From: a bacterium
Lineage (GTDB): Bacteria > DYJV01 > JALVYZ01
Length of the DNA stretch: 11,704 nt
Direction: 5' to 3'
Assembly (NCBI GenBank): GCA_027037705.1
Contig: JALVYZ010000234.1
Coordinates: 1 to 11,704, forward strand
Part shown: positions 231 to 11,121 of the stretch, one piece after another
How positions within the stretch are numbered: position 1 is the first letter of the stretch
How the letters are laid out: each line of letters starts with the position of its first letter
Translations under genes and position numbers: made by a program
Notes under the pieces: generated by a model
The model's input: the letters and a program-made list of their open reading frames with translations, nothing else
The model's database searches: none
What the model was told of the DNA's origin: nothing

Positions 231-2039
231 ATGTGTGGAATTGCAGGAGGGGTTAACTTAAAATTAGATAAAGAGTTTTTAGAAAAAGCTCTTTTTCATA
301 GAGGGCCAGATGACATAGGATATTTTGAAAATAAAAATATTTTTTTATTTCATACAAGACTTGCTATTCAGGATATAAGGCGAGGAAAACAGCCATTTAA
401 ATTTAAAAATTTTGTTATTGTTTACAATGGAGAAATATATAATCATCTTGAGTTAAGAGACCAATATTTAAAGGATTTCAAATTTTCAACTCATTCAGAT
501 ACAGAAACACTTCTCTACATGTTCATAAAATTCAGAGAAAATATGTTTGAAAAGATTGATGGAATGTTTGCCTTTGCTATTTTTGACATGGAGAATAAAA
601 AATTATTTCTTGCAAGGGATAGAACAGGGAAAAAGCCTCTTTATTATTATTTAGAAGATGATAAATTTTTTTTTGCAAGTGAGCTTAATGTTTTTAAGTG
701 TATAAATAGATTACAAATTAGTGATGAAGCTATTTATTTATACTTGAGATGTGGATTTTTCCCATTTGATACAACTCCTTATAAAAAAGTAAAAAAATTA
801 AAAAATGGGAGTTTTTTAGTATTTAATCTACAAAATTATTCTTTAAAGGAATCAAAATATTTTGATATTTTAGAATATTATTTGCAACCAAAATTATTAA
901 AAGATGAGGATGAGACTATAGAAATTTTGGATGAAAAACTATCAAAAAGTGTCAAAGATAGACTTTTAGCTTCAGATTTAGAAGTTGGGGCTTTTCTAAG
1001 TGGAGGTATAGATAGTTCTCTGGTAGTAGCTTTTGCTTCTCAATTTGTATCTAACTTAAAAACTTTTACTGTGAAGTTTGAAGGTGAATATGATGAGACC
1101 CCATTAGCTAAATTAACTGCACAAAAATATGGAACTGAACATAATGAAGTTGAAATTTCAATGAATTTAAAGGAAGATGTTGTAAAAATATTAAAAAATT
1201 ATGGAATGCCATTTATGGATTCTTCTGCAATTCCAAGTTATTATGTAAGTAGAGAAGCAAAAAAATATTTAACTGTAATTTTAAATGGAGATGGAGCTGA
1301 TGAGTTGTTTGCAGGATATAGAAGATATGTGCCAGTAACTAATAAGTATCTAAAAATTGCAAGAAAATTTAATTATTTATTAAAGATTTTACCTCTGCCA
1401 GATGAAAAAAAATCAATTTATAATTATATTTATCGTTTACTTGAAATGAGTAACAAAAAAGGACTTGATTTTTATCTTTCTGCAACAAATGATATTTTTG
1501 AAGATGTTTACTATTTTGAAAGTAATGAAATTTTAGAAAAGCTTGATAATTTTATTTTAAGTGTTTTTGAAAATAAAGAATTAACAGAATTATCAAAATT
1601 TTTATATCTTGATTTTGAATTAATTTTATTTTGTGATTTGCTTATAAAAATGGACATTGCAACAATGGCAAACTCATTGGAGGGTAGAAGTCCATTTTTA
1701 AGCAAATATCTACTTGAATTTGCTCCACAAATTCCAGATAAGTATAAAATTTACAAATTAACTACAAAATATATTTTAAGAAAATTAGGAAAGAAATATT
1801 TACCTAAAAGATTGATAAATCAACCAAAGAGAGGATTTGAAGTTCCATTAAAAAAATGGATAAATCACGAGCTAAAAGATTTAATATTTGATGCGTTGAG
1901 AAAAGGATGTTGTTCAGAAAATTATATCAATAGAAAATTTATAGATAATTTATTAAATAAAAAAATAAGGATATCAGAAGAAAAAAGAGCTAAAATTTTA
2001 TGGACAATGTTTTGTCTTGAAGTATGGAAAAATGAATAA
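231..2039 (+). CDS. asnB: Glutamine-hydrolysing asparagine synthetase family protein (AsnB), possibly a sugar amidotransferase
   Basis: This 602-residue protein has the two-domain layout and length of class B asparagine synthetases. The start is fixed by Cys2, the N-terminal nucleophile exposed after Met removal (MCGIAGG). The class II glutaminase domain shows HRGPDD (23-28), HTRLAIQD (41-48), VYNGEIYNH (64-72) and ARDRTGKKPLYYY (128-140). The synthetase domain carries the pyrophosphate-binding loop SGGIDSS (257-263) and GDGADELFAGYRRY (353-366). Known chemistry: glutamine supplies ammonia to an AMP-activated carboxylate, normally aspartate. Homologues inside polysaccharide clusters are thought to amidate uronic-acid sugars instead, so its position between a flippase-like ABC gene and glycosyltransferases leaves both roles open. 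A weak ribosome site (AAAAGGA, 211-217) lies 13 nt upstream. The end overlaps the next gene by 8 nt. Confidence 0.93.
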   Translation: MCGIAGGVNLKLDKEFLEKALFHRGPDDIGYFENKNIFLFHTRLAIQDIRRGKQPFKFKNFVIVYNGEIYNHLELRDQYLKDFKFSTHSDTETLLYMFIKFRENMFEKIDGMFAFAIFDMENKKLFLARDRTGKKPLYYYLEDDKFFFASELNVFKCINRLQISDEAIYLYLRCGFFPFDTTPYKKVKKLKNGSFLVFNLQNYSLKESKYFDILEYYLQPKLLKDEDETIEILDEKLSKSVKDRLLASDLEVGAFLSGGIDSSLVVAFASQFVSNLKTFTVKFEGEYDETPLAKLTAQKYGTEHNEVEISMNLKEDVVKILKNYGMPFMDSSAIPSYYVSREAKKYLTVILNGDGADELFAGYRRYVPVTNKYLKIARKFNYLLKILPLPDEKKSIYNYIYRLLEMSNKKGLDFYLSATNDIFEDVYYFESNEILEKLDNFILSVFENKELTELSKFLYLDFELILFCDLLIKMDIATMANSLEGRSPFLSKYLLEFAPQIPDKYKIYKLTTKYILRKLGKKYLPKRLINQPKRGFEVPLKKWINHELKDLIFDALRKGCCSENYINRKFIDNLLNKKIRISEEKRAKILWTMFCLEVWKNE

Positions 2040-3147
2040 TAAAAAGATTGTATTTCTTTCACACCTTGATCTTAATTTATATTTATTTAGACTTCCTATT
2101 ATGAAACAACTTGTAAAAAATGGATTTAATGTTTATGCAATAATTCCAAAAGGAGACTATTTTGAAAAATTTAAAGATTTTGGTATAATACCTATACATT
2201 ATACAATAGAAAGGAGTAGTTTAAACATTTTTTATGAAGCTAAAACTCTCAAAAAAATTAAAGAAATTATAAAAAAAATAGATCCTGATATTTTACATAC
2301 TTTTATGCATAAACCAAATATCTATGGAAATTTATCTGGTGCAAGAAATATAATAAATACTGTTTCAGGACTTGGAAGCTTTTTTATACATGATGATATC
2401 AAGTCAAAATTGGTAAGAAAAATAATTGAAAATCTTTACAAAATTACAACAAAAAATGCCAAAAAGATTATTTTTCAAAATCAAGATGATATGTATTATT
2501 TTTTGAATAAAAGAATTATTCCTGAAAGTAAAGCTGTTTTAGTAAAATCAAGCGGAGTTGATACAGAATATTTTAAACCACAGCCTCAAAATCAAGAATT
2601 AATGAATGAATTAAAGATTGATAAAGATAAATTAGTTGTTTTAATGATTGCAAGGGTTATAAAAGATAAAGGAGTGCTTGAATATATTAAAGCAGCTGAA
2701 AATTTAAAAAATAAAGCAATTTTTTTATATGCTGGTGAGATAGATAGGGGGAACAAAAATGCTTTTATTCCAGATTGGAGAAATGTGAAATATCTTGGTT
2801 TTAGAAAAGATATAAAAGATTTGATTTCTATTGCAGATATTGTAGCCCTTCCAAGTTATAGAGAAGGGACTCCGCGAACATTACTTGAAGCTGGAGCAAT
2901 GGAAAAACCATTGATAACAACTGATGCTCCAGGATGTAGAGAGGTAGTTAAAGATGGATATAATGGTTTTCTTGTTCCTGTTAAAAATATAGAATTATTA
3001 ACTGAAAAGATAAAGAAGCTAATTGAAAATCAAGAATTGAGAGAAAAGTTTGGACAAAATAGTAGAAAATTCATCACAGAAAATTTTGATGTAAAAATTG
3101 TAGTTTCAAAATATATTGAAATTTATGAAGAGATTTTAAATGTATAG
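2032..3147 (+). CDS. GT4-family glycosyltransferase, PglA/CapM-like
   Basis: The product has 371 residues with the GT-B fold pattern of family 4 retaining glycosyltransferases. The N-terminal half starts [20 protein letters not shown] and includes VSGLGSFF (111-118). The C-terminal nucleotide-sugar half has [18 protein letters not shown] (205-222), the EX7E motif with Glu278 and Glu286 ([14 protein letters not shown], 277-290) and [19 protein letters not shown] (298-316). I chose ATG 2032 rather than the in-frame TTG at 2017 because homologues begin right before the first beta strand; it overlaps asnB by 8 nt. In Campylobacter the similar PglA adds GalNAc to undecaprenyl-PP-bacillosamine. Being directly upstream of a PglC gene suggests it adds the second sugar on the cytoplasmic membrane face. 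Donor specificity cannot be read from sequence. Confidence 0.9.
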
Positions 3148-3745
3148 AAATTGTATTAAACCAATAATTGATTTTTTTTTAGCAATTATTTTATTGATAT
3201 TATTATCTCCATTGATGATTTTAATTTCAATTTTTATATACTTTTCAATGGGAAAGCCTGTTTTATTTAAACAAAAAAGACCAGGATATAAAGAAAAGAT
3301 TTTTACTTTATATAAATTTAGAACAATGACTAATGAAAAAGATAAGAATGGAAATTTATTGCCTGATGAAAAGAGATTGACAAAAGTTGGTAAAATAATT
3401 AGAAATTTAAGTCTGGATGAGTTACCACAATTATTTAATGTTTTAAAAGGCGATATGAGTTTTGTTGGACCAAGGCCTTTACTTGTAGAATATTTACCAT
3501 TATACAATGATAGGCAAAGAAAAAGACATGAAGTAAAACCTGGGATAACAGGTCTTGCTCAGGTAATGGGAAGAAATGCGTTAACATGGAAGGAGAAATT
3601 TGAATATGATGTTTACTATGTAGAGAATTTATCATTCTGGCTCGATCTAAAAATAATTTTATTAACAATATTGAAAGTATTAAAGAGAGAAGGTATTTCT
3701 CCAGAAAATAGAGTTACTATGGAAAAATTTAATGGAAAAAATTAA
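3140..3745 (+). CDS. pglC: Monotopic phosphoglycosyl transferase PglC (initiating sugar-1-phosphate transferase)
   Basis: This 201-residue protein is the size of the minimal bacterial sugar transferase (PF02397) and closely follows Campylobacter PglC as I remember it. It has the N-terminal re-entrant membrane helix with its Ser-Pro break (S23-P24, in LLSPLMIL), the catalytic Asp-Glu dyad at the same numbers (D93-E94 in [16 protein letters not shown]), the [13 protein letters not shown] segment (106-118), [14 protein letters not shown] (134-147) and a tail ending EKFNGKN as in PglC. The enzyme moves sugar-1-phosphate from a UDP-sugar to undecaprenyl phosphate through a covalent Asp intermediate, starting glycan assembly. 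It overlaps the GT4 gene by 8 nt, with GAAGAG (3127-3132) as ribosome site. Its usual substrate is UDP-di-N-acetylbacillosamine; here the acyl group on N4 is uncertain because pglD is not adjacent. Confidence 0.92.
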
Positions 3746-4705
3746 ATGAAAATAGAAAATATTTTAATTACAAGTGCAGGAAGAAGAGTAACATTAGTAA
3801 ATATTTTTAGAAAAACTTTAAAAAAATATAATAAAAATGGAGAAGTATATACTACAGATATGAATCCTTTTTTTAGTAGTGCATGTCATATTTCAGATGG
3901 TTATTTTGAAGTGCCAAAAGTTACAGATAAAAATTATATTAAAATTTTAAAAGAGATCTGTATTGAAAATAATATTTCTATTGTTGTTCCAACAATTGAT
4001 ACAGAATTACATATATTAGCTTCTGCAAAGGATGAATTTTTAGAGTATAATATTTTAATTGCAGTATCATCAGAAGAATTTTGTAAAACTTTTTATTTAA
4101 AAACAACTACTGAAAGATTTTTTAAAAAATATGGATTTAAAACTCCTGAAATTATAACAGATTTAAATAATTGTTCCTTCCCGATTTTTGCAAAAAAAAA
4201 TAATTCTTCAAGTTCAATAGGAGCAAAGATTATCAATAATTTAGAAGAAGCTAAGAGCCTTTCAAAATATGGTGATTATATATTTCAGCAATATATAAAT
4301 GGAGAAGAGTATACAGTTGATGTTTTTATTGATAGAAATGAAAGGGTGATATCTATCATTCCGAGGTTAAGAATTGAAATTAGAGCAGGAGAAGTTAGTA
4401 AAGCAAAAACAGTAAAAGACAAAAAAATAATAGAGAAAGTAAAAGAAGTTTGCAAATATTTAAAAGGAGCATATGGTTGTTTAACAATTCAGTTATTTAA
4501 AACAGAAAATGAAATATATTTTATTGAGATAAATCCAAGATTTGGGGGAGGATATCCATTAAGTTATTTTGCTGGGGCTAATTTTGCAGATTATTTAATT
4601 CAAGATTTTTTGCAATATGATTTAATTTATAATGAAAGCTGGAAAAATAATTTAATTATGCTTAGATATGATGCAGAGGTTATAGTTGATGGTAATAGTT
4701 TTTGA
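3746..4705 (+). CDS. ATP-grasp ligase, carbamoyl-phosphate-synthase-like, glycan-cluster type
   Basis: The protein has 319 residues. An N-terminal pre-ATP-grasp Rossmann-like domain opens with ILITSAGRRVTLVNIF (6-21), followed by TTDMNPFFSSACHISDGYF (36-54) and VPTIDTELHILASAKDEF (81-98). The ATP-grasp part includes a small Ser/Gly loop (NNSSSSIGAK, 152-161), the strand before the acid cluster (QQYINGEEYTVDVFID, 181-196) and the metal/ATP signature FIEINPRFGGGYPLSYFAG (259-277). Such enzymes join a carboxylate to an amine or other nucleophile through an acylphosphate; the acceptor is unknown. It starts on the base after the pglC stop and overlaps the HAD gene by 17 nt. It occupies the place held by the acetyltransferase gene pglD in Campylobacter, so ligation of an acyl or amino-acid group to an amino sugar is a reasonable but untested inference. 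Confidence 0.85.
   Translation: MKIENILITSAGRRVTLVNIFRKTLKKYNKNGEVYTTDMNPFFSSACHISDGYFEVPKVTDKNYIKILKEICIENNISIVVPTIDTELHILASAKDEFLEYNILIAVSSEEFCKTFYLKTTTERFFKKYGFKTPEIITDLNNCSFPIFAKKNNSSSSIGAKIINNLEEAKSLSKYGDYIFQQYINGEEYTVDVFIDRNERVISIIPRLRIEIRAGEVSKAKTVKDKKIIEKVKEVCKYLKGAYGCLTIQLFKTENEIYFIEINPRFGGGYPLSYFAGANFADYLIQDFLQYDLIYNESWKNNLIMLRYDAEVIVDGNSF
4675..4679 (+). promoter_or_regulatory. Ribosome-binding site deciding the start of the HAD gene
   Basis: AGAGG lies 9 nt before ATG 4689, inside the end of the ATP-grasp gene. This favours ATG 4689 over the in-frame TTG at 4686 and indicates coupled translation of the two genes. Confidence 0.55.
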
Positions 4706-5315
4706 TCTTGATGATACATTATATAATGAAGTTGATTTTGTAAGAAGTGGATTTAAAGAAATTTCAAGTTATTTAGGAGATGATTTATATTATGATTTTA
4801 TGTGGAATTTATTTTTAGAAGAAGGTAGTGGAAAAATATTTAATAAATTAATAGAAAAATTTAAAATAAAAGAAGATATTGCAAAACTTCTTGAAATTTA
4901 TAGATTCCATATACCAGATATAAAATTAAGTGAAGAGTCAATTAGATTATTAGAATTTGCAAAAAATTATAAAACAGCCTTAATAACAGATGGACATTAT
5001 ATTACTCAAAAAAATAAGTTTCTAACTTTAGGTCTGGGAAAATTTATAGAATATTCTGTTTTTACAGATTTTTATCATACCTCTAAGTTTGAGGAAAAGC
5101 CATTTATCATGGTTATGAAATATTTTAAAAATGAGGATAAATTCATTTATATTGCTGATAATCCTAAAAAGGATTTTATAGTTCCTAAAAAGTTAAAATG
5201 GTATACAATAAGATATAAAAATCCATATGGTATTTATAAATCGTATCCAAATAATGCTAATATTGAGGTTGATTCATTAGAAAAAATTATATCAATATTA
5301 GAGGAGATTAAATGA
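4689..5315 (+). CDS. HAD-superfamily hydrolase paired with the ATP-grasp gene
   Basis: From ATG 4689 the product has 208 residues. Motif I is FDLDDTL (5-11, nucleophile D6 and acid/base D8). Motif II is ALITDG (97-102, T100). Motif III is the lysine in FEEKP (K137). Motif IV is YIADNPKKDF (154-163, D157 and D162). All catalytic positions of a HAD phosphatase are present, with an alpha-helical C1 cap at about residues 15-85. The substrate is not deducible; a sugar phosphate, nucleotide or acyl-phosphate product of neighbouring enzymes are candidates. It overlaps the ATP-grasp gene by 17 nt and pglE by 4 nt (ATGA), so the three are probably made together. I recall ATP-grasp plus HAD pairs recurring in surface-polysaccharide clusters, which supports a joint role. 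Confidence 0.87.
   Translation: MVIVFDLDDTLYNEVDFVRSGFKEISSYLGDDLYYDFMWNLFLEEGSGKIFNKLIEKFKIKEDIAKLLEIYRFHIPDIKLSEESIRLLEFAKNYKTALITDGHYITQKNKFLTLGLGKFIEYSVFTDFYHTSKFEEKPFIMVMKYFKNEDKFIYIADNPKKDFIVPKKLKWYTIRYKNPYGIYKSYPNNANIEVDSLEKIISILEEIK
5301..5306 (+). promoter_or_regulatory. Strong ribosome-binding site of pglE
   Basis: GAGGAG is placed 5 nt before ATG 5312, within the last codons of the HAD gene. It is one of the few strong sites in the glycan block and confirms the ATGA-overlap start. Confidence 0.65.
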
Positions 5316-6439
5316 TATTTCTCTCTCCACCTTACATGTCAGGTAAAGAGCTTGAATATATTAAAAAGGTTTTTGAAAGCAATTATATTGCACCTGTTGG
5401 AGAGTTTTTGGATAAATTTGAAAAAAATATTTGTGATTACACAAAAAGTAAATATGCAGTAGCTGTATCATCAGGGACTTCTGCAATTCATCTTGCTTTG
5501 AGAGTCCTTGGAGTAAGAGAAGGAGATTATGTCTTATGTTCAACATTTACATTTATTGGCTCAGTTTCTCCTGTACTTTATCAAAATGCAATTCCAGTTT
5601 TTATAGATAGTAATTATAAAACATGGAATTTAGATCCAGATTTACTTGAACTTGCTATTAATGAGTTACATAAAAAGGAGATATACCCAAAAGCATTAAT
5701 TTTAACTCATATTTACGGACAACCAGCAGAAATTGATAAAATTCTTGAGATTTGTAATAAATTTAACATTTATCTTATTGAGGATGCAGCAGAATCTCTT
5801 GGCGCAACTTTTAATAATAAACATACTGGTACTTTTGGAATTGCAGGAGTTTATTCTTTTAATGGCAATAAAATAATTACAACTTCTGGGGGAGGAATGC
5901 TTATATCCAATGAAAAATGGGTTGTGGAAAAAGCAAGATTTTATGCAACCCAAGCAAAAGAAGATACTTTATGGTATGAGCATAGAGAAGTTGGATATAA
6001 TTATAGGTTAAGCAATGTACTTGCGGGAATAGGTGTTGCTCAACTTGAGATGATTGAAGAAAAAATAGAAAAGAGAAGGAAAATTTTTAATTTATATAAA
6101 GAGTTATTAAAAGATTTGAATGTAGAATTTATGCCTGAACTTGAGAATGCAAGAGGGAACAGATGGTTAACCACTTTAACTTTTAATGATTTAGATATAA
6201 ATCCATTTGAAGTAGTAAAAAGAATGCAAAATATTGGGATAGAGACAAGGCCTTTGTGGAAACCAATGCATCTTCAGCCAGTTTTTAAAAATTTTATCTT
6301 TTATTCAAATGGAGTAAGTCAAGATATATTTAATAGAGGAATATGTCTTCCAAGTGGACATGAATTAACAGAGGATGATTTAATTTTTATTACCAATAAA
6401 TTAAAATCTATTATAGATGGATTAAATAAAAAAGCTTGA
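5312..6439 (+). CDS. pglE: PLP-dependent UDP-amino-sugar aminotransferase, PglE-like (DegT/DnrJ/EryC1 family)
   Basis: This 375-residue protein matches the DegT family and resembles Campylobacter PglE along its length. The N-terminus reads FLSPPYMSGKELEYIKKVF; VSSGTSAIHLAL (52-63) is the phosphate-binding region; IEDAAESLGA (156-165) carries the PLP-pairing Asp158; YSFNGNKIITTSGGGML (181-197) holds the Schiff-base Lys187; GYNYRLSNVLAGIG (228-241) and ETRPLWKPMH follow, and GICLPSG lies near the end. In the known pathway PglE aminates C4 of the UDP-4-keto-6-deoxy-GlcNAc made by PglF, using glutamate as amino donor. The product amine would be the substrate for acylation by PglD, which is not in this window. 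It is the last gene of the glycan block; a 61-nt gap with no clear terminator separates it from rpmE. Confidence 0.92.
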   Translation: MIFLSPPYMSGKELEYIKKVFESNYIAPVGEFLDKFEKNICDYTKSKYAVAVSSGTSAIHLALRVLGVREGDYVLCSTFTFIGSVSPVLYQNAIPVFIDSNYKTWNLDPDLLELAINELHKKEIYPKALILTHIYGQPAEIDKILEICNKFNIYLIEDAAESLGATFNNKHTGTFGIAGVYSFNGNKIITTSGGGMLISNEKWVVEKARFYATQAKEDTLWYEHREVGYNYRLSNVLAGIGVAQLEMIEEKIEKRRKIFNLYKELLKDLNVEFMPELENARGNRWLTTLTFNDLDINPFEVVKRMQNIGIETRPLWKPMHLQPVFKNFIFYSNGVSQDIFNRGICLPSGHELTEDDLIFITNKLKSIIDGLNKKA

Positions 6440-8292: not shown

Positions 8293-9352
8293 GCTTCAGG
8301 AGATAGAAAATAAATATAAAGAATTAACAAAAGAGCTTGAAAATCCTGATATTTTTCAGGATATCAAGAAGTATCAAGAAATATCAAAAGAACATTCTGA
8401 TTTAAAACCAATTGTTGAAAAATTTAATGAATATAAAAGTGTGGTTAAGCAAATTGAAGAAAATAAAGATATAATTGAAAATGAAAAAGATGAAGAAATT
8501 ATAGAGCTTGCAAAAGAAGAATTAAAAGAACTTGAAGATAGAAAAGAGAATTTGGAAAATGAATTAAAATTACTTTTAATCCCAAAAGACCCTAATGATG
8601 ATAAAAATATTATTCTTGAAATAAGAGCTGGAACTGGAGGTGAGGAAGCAGCCTTATTTGCAGCTGATTTATTTAGAATGTATTCAAGATATGCGGAAAG
8701 AAAAGGCTGGAAAGTTGAAGTTATGAGTGCTAATGAAACAGGCACAGGTGGATATAAAGAAATTATATCATTGATTTCTGGAAAAGGTGCATATTCAAAG
8801 TTAAAATATGAAAGTGGAATTCACAGAGTTCAAAGAATTCCAGTTACTGAATCGCAGGGAAGAGTTCATACATCAGCTGTTTCTGTTGCAATTTTACCAG
8901 AAGCAGAGGAAGTAGATGTTGAGATTAAGCCTGAAGATTTAAGAATTGATGTGTTTAGAGCAAGTGGTGCTGGCGGACAGCATGTTAACACAACTGATTC
9001 TGCAGTTAGAATTACTCACATACCAACAGGAATTGTTGTTTCATGTCAGGATGAGAGAAGTCAGCATAAAAATAGAGCAAAAGCAATGAAAATTTTAAGA
9101 GCAAGATTGTATGAACTTGAAAGACAGAGAAAAGAGCAGGAATTAGCTGATTCAAGAAGACAACAAGTTGGCTCTGGTGATAGAAGTGAAAAGATAAGAA
9201 CTTATAATTTCCCTCAAAATAGAGTTACTGACCATAGAATTAATCTTACCTTATACAAGCTTGGAGATATTTTAGATGGAGATCTTGATGAAATAATTGA
9301 CAGTTTGATAACCCACTTTCAAGCTGAAAAGATTGCAGAATTGAGTGCGTGA
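8282..9352 (+). CDS. prfA: Peptide chain release factor 1 (RF1)
   Basis: The 356-residue product has normal RF1 length. An N-terminal helical domain occupies roughly 1-105. The stop-codon-reading tripeptide is PVT (187-189, in [14 protein letters not shown]), the RF1 type, not the SPF of RF2, so it reads UAA and UAG. The peptidyl-hydrolysis loop [15 protein letters not shown] has GGQ at 231-233. Family segments [15 protein letters not shown] (113-127) and [14 protein letters not shown] also match. ATG 8282 has AGAGG (8271-8275) at 6 nt and lies within the DUF1385 3' end. The Gln of GGQ is the methylation target of PrmC, whose gene is two genes downstream rather than adjacent because another module is placed in between. 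Confidence 0.97.
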
Positions 9353-9365
9353 GGAAGATAAGGAG

Positions 9366-9393
9366 GAAGGTTGAAGGTGGAAGGTAGAAGGCG
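9366..9393 (+). repeat. Tandem heptamer array 1, unit GAAGGTN (4 copies)
   Basis: Four direct heptamers follow without gaps: GAAGGTT, GAAGGTG, GAAGGTA and GAAGGCG. The whole stretch 9353-9391 has no cytosine on the + strand and is much richer in G than the flanking genes. It begins 14 nt after the prfA stop. It resembles heptanucleotide short tandemly repeated repetitive sequences described in some bacteria; no homology is claimed. Confidence 0.85.
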
Positions 9394-9399
9394 ATAAAA

Positions 9400-9421
9400 G
9401 GTTAGTTGGAGGTTAGTTGAG
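9400..9421 (+). repeat. Tandem 11-mer pair, unit GGTTAGTTGGA
   Basis: Two adjacent copies are seen, GGTTAGTTGGA and GGTTAGTTGAG, separated from array 1 by six A/T-rich bases. The segment could pair weakly with the C-rich array near 9466-9472 (GGTTAGT against ACTAATC, one G-U pair). Confidence 0.75.
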
Positions 9422-9431
9422 ACACGGTTCA

Positions 9432-9452
9432 AATGAGAAATGAAAAATTAAA
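9432..9452 (+). repeat. Tandem heptamer array 2, unit AATGARA (3 copies)
   Basis: AATGAGA, AATGAAA and AATTAAA run in tandem and continue into an A-run (9453-9457). The first unit supplies the ATG at 9433 used by the open frame of the antitoxin-like gene. Confidence 0.65.
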
Positions 9453-9741
9453 AAAAACACGAACCACTAATCACGAGTCACAAACCACGCTAAACATCAA
9501 TTGGGATAATGTGAAATCTGAAGATGTGTTAGTTGTGAGAGAGATGCTTTATGAAAATCCTAAAATTGTTTTAAAAAAGTATAGCAAAGAGAAGTTAAAA
9601 GAAATTTTTCTAAATTATTTGCATTTATTTGATAAAAAGAATTTAAATTTTTGGAAATTGGTGTTAGATATAGATGATGATCTGCTTAACAAAAAAACAA
9701 AAAAGAGCTTTAGAAAAGATTGTTCAATCTGGAATTACTAA
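9433..9741 (+). CDS. Small putative antitoxin of an AbiEii-type toxin pair
   Basis: The open frame encodes 102 residues. Residues 1-19 are translated from the repeat blocks and look accidental; the plausible folded part begins near NINWDNV (about residue 21). It contains VREMLYENPKIVLKKYSKEK and FDKKNLNFWKLVLDI, and ends in SIWNY. The D-K-x-x-L-N-F-W segment and the W-x-Y end remind me of the small DUF6922-type proteins that precede AbiEii-like toxins; this is memory, not a search. Its last 68 nt overlap the toxin gene in another frame, typical of a coupled two-gene module. ATG 9433 lacks a clear ribosome site; GTG 9511 and ATG 9544 are alternative starts. I chose 9433 because the conserved-looking INWD segment lies upstream of 9511. 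Confidence 0.6.
   Translation: MRNEKLKKTRTTNHESQTTLNINWDNVKSEDVLVVREMLYENPKIVLKKYSKEKLKEIFLNYLHLFDKKNLNFWKLVLDIDDDLLNKKTKKSFRKDCSIWNY
9458..9492 (+). repeat. Tandem heptamer array 3, unit CACNARY (4 copies plus one degenerate)
   Basis: CACGAAC, CACTAAT, CACGAGT and CACAAAC are contiguous, followed by the degenerate CACGCTA. This block is C-rich and G-poor, the reverse strand bias of array 1. It is read in frame as TRTTNHESQTT in the antitoxin-like gene, a peptide pattern I recognise from spurious low-complexity ORFs in other bacterial genomes. Confidence 0.85.
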
Positions 9742-10285
9742 AAAGTTTTACTTGGCAGGTGGAACTGCCATTTCAATAAAATATAATCATAGAATCTCTG
9801 AAGATTTTGATTTTTTTATAAAAAATAACAAATTTAACTTTCAACCTTTTATACAAAATCTTTCAGACACAAGGATCTTAACACTTTCCAATAATACTTT
9901 AATATTTGATTTTTTAGGAGTAAAATTTTCATTTTTTTGCTATAATTATAAATTGATTGAAGAATTATATTTTCACAAAGAGCTTAATATAAATATTGCT
10001 TCAGATAAAGATATAATTTGCATGAAAGCTATTTCAATAATTCAGAGAGGCTCAAAGAAAGATTTTTATGATTTATGGTTTTTAATGAAAAATAATAAAT
10101 TTGATATTAATCATTTAATAAACTTTTGCAAAGAGAAATATGAAGATAAATTTTCAGAACAATTGTTATTGAAATCTCTTATTTATTTTAATGATGCAGA
10201 AAAAGAAGAGTATAAAGATATTGAGAAAAACTGGAATGAAATTAAAAATTTTTTTATAAGATTGGTAAATAAATATATAAATTGA
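9674..10285 (+). CDS. AbiEii/AbiGii-type nucleotidyltransferase toxin
   Basis: This 203-residue protein shows the pattern of the AbiEii toxin family (PF08843), a DNA polymerase beta-like nucleotidyltransferase fold. It opens with LTKKQKRALEKI. Motif I is FYLAGGTAISIKYNHRISED (25-44), with Gly29-Gly30 and the metal-binding Asp44-x-Asp46. Motif II is FDFLGVKFSFFCY (78-90). The conserved helix region is SDKDIICMKAISIIQRGSKK (110-129), followed by DFYDLWFL with D130 and D133. Family members such as AbiEii and MenT transfer nucleotides to RNA or tRNA and stop growth or phage. All motif residues seem intact, so it is likely active. ATG 9674 and ATG 9677 are equally possible starts. The stop overlaps the prmC TTG start by 3 nt. 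It sits between prfA and prmC, an unusual place for such cargo. Confidence 0.88.
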   Translation: MMICLTKKQKRALEKIVQSGITKKFYLAGGTAISIKYNHRISEDFDFFIKNNKFNFQPFIQNLSDTRILTLSNNTLIFDFLGVKFSFFCYNYKLIEELYFHKELNINIASDKDIICMKAISIIQRGSKKDFYDLWFLMKNNKFDINHLINFCKEKYEDKFSEQLLLKSLIYFNDAEKEEYKDIEKNWNEIKNFFIRLVNKYIN

Positions 10286-11121
10286 CACTTAGAGAACTTT
10301 TAATTCAAGGAATTAAGAAATTAAAGGATTCAAATATAAATAACCCTCAACTTGTCTCAGAAATTTTCCTCTCAGATATTTTATCTAAATCTAAAGAATG
10401 GATAATTGCAAATCCTGATTTTGAATTAAAAGATAGTAAAATAATAGATAAATTTAATGAATTCATTCAGAGAAAAATAAATGGTGAGCCAGTTGAATAT
10501 ATTATTGGAAAAAAAGAATTTTTTTCAATTAATATTAAAGTTAATAAAAATGTTTTAATTCCAAGACCTGAAACAGAAATCTTAGTAGAAAAAGCGATTA
10601 ATGTCATCAAAAAAAATAGTTTAAAAAAAGTGATTGATATTGGTACTGGTAGTGGCGCAATTGCAATTTCCATAAAAAAAGAGGCCCCAGATATTGAAAT
10701 TATCGCTACTGATATAAGTTTAGACGCATTAAAAGTTGCAAAAGAAAATTCTAAAAATTTAAATATAAATTTTATATGCTGTGATTTGTTTAATGGAGTA
10801 AAGGGTAAATTTGATTTAATTATTTCAAATCCACCTTATATAAAAACAAGAGATTTAAAAAAATTACCCGATAAAGTTAAAAATTTTGAGCCAATTAATG
10901 CTCTTGATGGTGGTGAAGATGGTTTGAAATATTATAAAAAAATAGTTGGAGAAGGAAAAAATTATCTTTCAAAAAATGGATTTATAATTTTTGAAATCGG
11001 TTATATCTCAGTAGTAAAAAAACTTGAAAAAATATTTGCATATAATAATTTTTGTGATATAAAATTTTTTAGAGATTATTCTAATTTCCCAAGAGTTATT
11101 ATGGCAAGATATAAATGTTAA
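10282..11121 (+). CDS. prmC: Release factor glutamine methyltransferase PrmC
   Basis: The 279-residue protein has an N-terminal helical domain (MTLRELLIQG at the start) and a Rossmann methyltransferase domain. Visible landmarks are VLIPRPETEILVE (91-103), the SAM-binding DIGTGSGAIAIS (119-130) and the catalytic FDLIISNPPYI (177-187) with NPPY at 183-186. PrmC N5-methylates the Gln of the GGQ motif of RF1 and RF2 and increases release efficiency. The start is TTG 10282: an in-frame TAA at 10270-10272 blocks any upstream start, no ATG lies nearby, and MTLREL is the usual family N-terminus. No good ribosome site precedes it, so translation probably depends on ribosomes finishing the toxin gene, whose TGA overlaps (TTGA). 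Confidence 0.96.
   Translation: MTLRELLIQGIKKLKDSNINNPQLVSEIFLSDILSKSKEWIIANPDFELKDSKIIDKFNEFIQRKINGEPVEYIIGKKEFFSINIKVNKNVLIPRPETEILVEKAINVIKKNSLKKVIDIGTGSGAIAISIKKEAPDIEIIATDISLDALKVAKENSKNLNINFICCDLFNGVKGKFDLIISNPPYIKTRDLKKLPDKVKNFEPINALDGGEDGLKYYKKIVGEGKNYLSKNGFIIFEIGYISVVKKLEKIFAYNNFCDIKFFRDYSNFPRVIMARYKC

Follow-up and report, generated by a model that had tools for sequence, protein, structure and literature searches.

A ligase and phosphatase pair in a pgl-like locus probably places glyceric or a similar acid, in place of acetate, on the first sugar of a glycan

Glycans initiated by PglC are commonly assumed to begin with diacetylbacillosamine, and the pgl genes of Campylobacter jejuni have the order pglA-pglC-pglD-wlaJ-pglE-pglF. 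The 11,704 nt stretch of DNA analysed here, termed the window, carries a pgl-like cluster in which genes for an ATP-grasp enzyme and a HAD hydrolase are found where the PglD acetyltransferase gene would be expected. The question is which enzyme acylates the N4 amine of the first sugar in this organism, and with what acid. The initial annotation proposed that an ATP-dependent ligase does so in place of PglD. This proposal is well supported and highly probable, and it has a precedent which that annotation did not name, PglB2 of Neisseria. Taken as a whole, the locus is quite likely a split PglB2-type cassette within a pgl-like glycan locus, with glycerate as the most likely acid.

Gene organization of the window

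The window is an entire contig (C234) of a MAG that consists of 496 contigs, and the left flank of the cluster can be read only up to asnB. This gene (positions 231–2039, plus strand, as are all genes of the cluster) encodes an AsnB-like glutamine amidotransferase (PF00733/TIGR01536) that heads the cluster and is followed by a GT4 glycosyltransferase (2032–3147; PF00534) at the pglA position. Next is a PglC-type monotopic phosphoglycosyltransferase (PGT) of 201 aa (3140–3745), a small single-domain Bac_transf protein in which PF02397 covers residues 7–182 (1.1e-67). The ATP-grasp protein, the proposed N4-acyl (glycerate) ligase, consists of 319 aa (3746–4705) and displays PylC-like_N and ATP-grasp_3 domains. 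The HAD hydrolase (4689–5315; HAD_2), of the C1-cap type, has an ATG start and 208 aa and is the proposed phosphatase supplying the carboxylate. A 375 aa PglE-type UDP-4-keto-sugar aminotransferase of the DegT family (5312–6439; PF01041) completes the four-gene core, which spans positions 3140–6439. The PGT stop codon directly precedes the ATP-grasp start (a 0 nt junction), the ATP-grasp and HAD genes overlap by 17 nt, and the HAD and PglE genes by 4 nt. The open reading frame coordinates and Pfam families agree with the earlier description of pglC, ATP-grasp, HAD and pglE genes abutting or overlapping by 0–17 nt.

The right flank of the cluster consists of thyX, DUF1385 and prfA. An AbiEii-like nucleotidyltransferase gene (PF08843) is present at positions 9674–10285, between prfA and prmC, and a small open reading frame upstream of it (9433–9741) might be its partner.

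Synteny at the phylum level rests on two genomes, this MAG and a relative (G001). The relative shows asnB-GT4-PGT-ATP-grasp running off a contig end; its PglE gene is not beside the cassette but elsewhere, after a repeat-rich stretch, and no HAD gene is found there. Short 10/20-nt tandem repeats (TTATTCGCGG) are situated upstream of this PglE gene (L239, 1036–1236). As in the window, an AsnB-like amidotransferase gene comes first in the clusters of G001 (contig C11, 2967–4796; L243) and of a Desulfohalobiaceae MAG (L059); the enzyme could function in amidation of a uronic acid in the glycan.

The ATP-grasp and HAD proteins

Residues K150, E261, N263 and R265 of the ATP-grasp protein, together with other residues, are invariant among 39 homologues. 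The AlphaFold model has a pLDDT of 95 and its best fold match is 2pn1 (Z = 36.8), which is also the nearest solved structure by sequence. 2pn1 is a 'carbamoyl phosphate synthase-like' ATP-grasp protein from Exiguobacterium known as a structure only. The amide-forming ligases PylC and PurD match the model with Z of about 27. PylC, the 3-methylornithine-L-lysine ligase, shares the PylC-like N-terminal domain and the ATP-grasp amide-forming fold with the window enzyme, but the sequence identity is about 18% and its substrates are amino acids.

The HAD protein displays motif I (DxD), the lysine motif and the acidic motif IV, with D6, D8, K133, D157 and D162 invariant in 25 sequences. Its AlphaFold model (pLDDT 97) has YfnB, PH1655 and NANP as nearest folds and resembles C1-cap phosphatases such as YfnB and NANP; the fold neighbours are mixed and none is diagnostic of a substrate. 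Judged from conserved residues and predicted structures, both the ATP-grasp and the HAD proteins look active.

Similarity to Neisseria PglB2

Aligned from end to end, the window ATP-grasp sequence matches the C-terminal half of a Neisseria PglB2-type fusion protein at 41% identity (318 columns, E-value = 2e-77). A homologous ATP-grasp gene is carried by 25 of 46 Neisseria species. In all 25 a PGT directly precedes it, one copy being a 527-aa PGT-ATP-grasp fusion, and a HAD gene follows in 23. The place taken by a PglB2-type ligase module is that of the PglB1 C-terminal domain or of PglD. The window shows the same features: the PGT abuts the ligase gene, the ATP-grasp homology is full length and includes the catalytic residues, and the acetyltransferase place is taken.

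PglB2 is an ATP grasp/phosphoglycosyltransferase that makes GATDH, a glyceramido-acetamido-trideoxyhexose (PMC11130364, PMC6959607). A swap of pglB2 for pglB1 is by itself enough to yield DATDH instead of GATDH, and the glyceramide has been located at C4 by cryo-EM (PMC10948894). A naturally split pglB2 is functional (PMC4569582). The principle of acylation by such a ligase is thus already known from Neisseria PglB2. A HAD hydrolase near the neisserial pgl genes has been mentioned just as a neighbour (PMC6959607), and we infer that the Neisseria 'ORF8' is this HAD gene.

The Neisseria locus also contains PglE- and PglF-type enzymes, but there are differences. In the window the PGT and ATP-grasp proteins are unfused, PglF is unlinked, a GT4 and an AsnB-like gene are found upstream of the PGT, and the aminotransferase belongs to the C. 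jejuni PglE subfamily, from which the Neisseria enzyme is distant. In a quick SH-aLRT tree, where many nodes are open, the window ATP-grasp groups with sequences from Campylobacterota and Desulfohalobiaceae, and the sister of this group is the larger clade to which Neisseria belongs. The Neisseria precedent makes glycerate a candidate acyl group, but because of the sister-clade position the assignment is carried over from Neisseria through homology and gene order, and the acid may differ.

PglD, PglF and PglE in the MAG

The initial annotation noted that a pglD gene could lie next to the cluster or elsewhere in the genome. No MAG sequence reached the TIGR03570 cut-off for PglD/NeuD, and the sole match of the PglD_N profile across the MAG is the Rossmann part of PglF. 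No protein combining PglD_N with left-handed beta-helix hexapeptide repeats is found in the locus or the genome. Five stronger hexapeptide matches were read by inspection as CysE, LpxD, GlmU and two gamma-carbonic-anhydrase-like proteins. Since the MAG is 92.8% complete, absence of pglD, as seen from these searches, is likely but not proven.

PglF itself is present, alone on contig C424 (3100–4932, minus strand) and unlinked to the window. Contig C254 carries, beside a GT2, the gene of an STT3/PglB-like oligosaccharyltransferase (L245, 1399–3444) that contains a WWDFG motif; the organism may N-glycosylate proteins. The best PDB relatives of the window aminotransferase, far above the next, are 1o61 (425 bits, 1.8e-126) and 4ztc (421 bits), both of which we take to be C. 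jejuni PglE. The set is similar to the C. jejuni pgl system in its PglC-type PGT, PglE-type aminotransferase and GT4 order, and in having PglF and an STT3/PglB-like protein in the genome. It differs in that the C. jejuni PglD acetyltransferase is replaced by the ATP-grasp and HAD proteins.

Exchange of PglD and the ATP-grasp in Campylobacterales

An anti-correlation between the ATP-grasp and PglD, suggested as a check by the initial annotation, is seen in Campylobacterales. Of the 199 genomes examined, a C. jejuni-type PglE is present in 106, a close ATP-grasp in 8 and a NeuD/PglD match in 95. PglD is found in 0 of the 8 ATP-grasp genomes vs 74 of the 98 other PglE genomes (Fisher 3.5e-5, uncorrected for kinship and inflated by related genomes). 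Within 4 kb of PglE there are 40 cases of PglD, 7 of the ATP-grasp and none of both. The two occupy the same syntenic slot, the order being GT4-PGT-PglD-PglE-PglF (L190, L191) or GT4-PGT-ATP-grasp-HAD-PglE with or without PglF (L172, L194, L195, L197).

The window PglE falls inside the Campylobacterota PglE clade. On the PglE tree, also a quick SH-aLRT tree with many open nodes, there are four or more changes of gene neighbourhood. Loci of the ATP-grasp form are found at three separate places within Campylobacterota, with one of which the window groups. This implies several separate PglD/ATP-grasp swaps. In one Campylobacterales genome without PglD (G210, L200), an ATP-grasp copy is broken by internal stops and adjoins a PglE read as two pieces.

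Distribution of the cassette

A scan of genome contigs for the ATP-grasp sequence gave 80 loci. The HAD gene is directly downstream in 64 of 77 loci, across phyla, and a PGT is directly upstream in 36 of 75. Where at least 6 kb is available on both sides (53 loci), HAD is present in 47, PGT in 46, PglE-type in 39, PglF-type in 27 and PglD in 5. The initial annotation had held that absence of co-occurrence with pglE-type genes in other genomes would speak against its proposal; co-occurrence with both PGT and PglE is strong. The order PGT-ATP-grasp-HAD-PglE-PglF is found in Bacteroidota, Pasteurellaceae, Acinetobacter, Ignavibacteriota and Campylobacterota, and the cassette is found in Bacillota as well. 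A search of viral contigs showed no ATP-grasp relative.

Fusions occur in several forms. In L067 and L080 the ATP-grasp and HAD are fused into one protein, which links the two steps. Bacteroidota also carry fusions that hold both acylation functions, PglD-ATP-grasp (L077, 6302–7957) and ATP-grasp-HAD-PglD (L095, 6941–9295). Replacement is thus not universal, as some Bacteroidota loci keep PglD and the ligase together. Two acylation activities in one protein are puzzling if they compete for one amine. Locus L049 shows a short PglD_N remnant between the PGT and the ATP-grasp. In Alphaproteobacteria (L053, L056, L057; L053 is an inverted duplicate) ATP-grasp-HAD pairs are found beside formyltransferases with no PGT adjacent, and the substrate range of the pair may therefore be wider.

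Predicted pathway and alternatives

In the predicted pathway PglF and PglE would convert UDP-GlcNAc to UDP-2-acetamido-4-amino-2,4,6-trideoxyhexose. The ATP-grasp ligase, acting in PglD's stead, would activate a small carboxylate with ATP to an acyl phosphate and form the amide on the N4 amine. With glycerate, the most likely carboxylate, the product would be UDP-GATDH. The HAD protein might either convert a phosphoglycerate to free glycerate or dephosphorylate a phosphoglyceramido product. Transfer of the acylated sugar phosphate to undecaprenyl phosphate by the PGT would then set the reducing-end sugar of the glycan, which the GT4 would extend. By this analysis glycerate is the likely acid; its supply through phosphatase action of the HAD protein is a reasoned guess, slightly favoured.

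The same N4 acylation might use another acid, such as an amino acid, lactate, hydroxybutyrate or a different carboxylate, which the HAD protein would make from a phosphorylated form. The amino acid substrates of the ATP-grasp relatives PylC and the D-Ala ligases fit such a reading, as do the separation of the window ATP-grasp clade from that of Neisseria and a HAD subfamily that carries no diagnostic substrate. However, the sole members with a known product, those of Neisseria, give glyceramide, and the PGT-ATP-grasp-HAD order is identical in both clades; another acid is judged unlikely. A HAD protein with an unrelated housekeeping role, e.g. as a nucleotide phosphatase, would leave acylation to the ATP-grasp alone, with the acid perhaps drawn from cell pools. 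The diversity of its fold neighbours, and the lack of an adjacent HAD match in 2 of the 25 Neisseria copies and 13 of the 77 loci, agree with this, but its frequent position directly downstream across phyla and its fusion with the ATP-grasp protein (L067, L080, L095) make it improbable.

A further reading, judged very improbable, places a pglD gene in the unassembled part of the genome and has the ATP-grasp-HAD pair act on another sugar or position. The MAG is fragmented and incomplete, a few loci have PglD and the ligase together, and the pairs beside formyltransferases exist without PGT or PglE. Yet all 8 close relatives with the same cassette are without PglD genome-wide, the cassette sits in the exact PglD slot, and in Neisseria the ATP-grasp is fused to the PGT. 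The reading preferred here remains N4 acylation by the ligase, with glycerate as the favoured acid.

Novelty and related observations

Besides the divergent phylum of this organism, Campylobacterota and many Bacteroidota have the N4-acylation module of Neisseria pilin in the PglD slot, and it exchanges with PglD. A literature search found nothing joining 'ATP-grasp' with 'bacillosamine', and in the literature searched neither the wide PglD/ligase exchange, repeated within Campylobacterota, nor the near-constant HAD partner seems to have been described. The cassette offers an easy way to recognize a different reducing-end sugar from genome sequence, suggests a candidate role for a closely linked HAD gene, and puts an enzyme set at hand for acyl variants of bacillosamine.

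A broader reading, possible but tentative, is that the ATP-grasp and HAD genes form a portable module, which has taken the place of PglD repeatedly and across phyla while the pgl-type loci around it stayed otherwise unchanged. In this reading the HAD protein would be a phosphatase dedicated to phosphoglycerate or phosphoglyceramide, and in this organism and some Campylobacterota N-linked glycans would start with bacillosamine that is glyceroylated rather than diacetylated. Such a phosphatase, if true, would be a step so far undescribed.

The gene for the N-glyceroyl group of the Tannerella forsythia nonulosonic acid has been called elusive, and the cassette may help with this glyceroyl step (PMC6120980). 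At the ATP-grasp locus of a Tannerella MAG (L073), no pseudaminic acid genes were identified nearby by inspection, and the tie to the glyceroyl group of pseudaminic acid is thus just a lead. Also at L073, a large HAD protein of FkbH-like appearance (9054–10640; 528 aa; by Pfam only PF03031) adjoins the ATP-grasp-HAD pair. Proteins of the FkbH kind are linked to glyceryl transfer.
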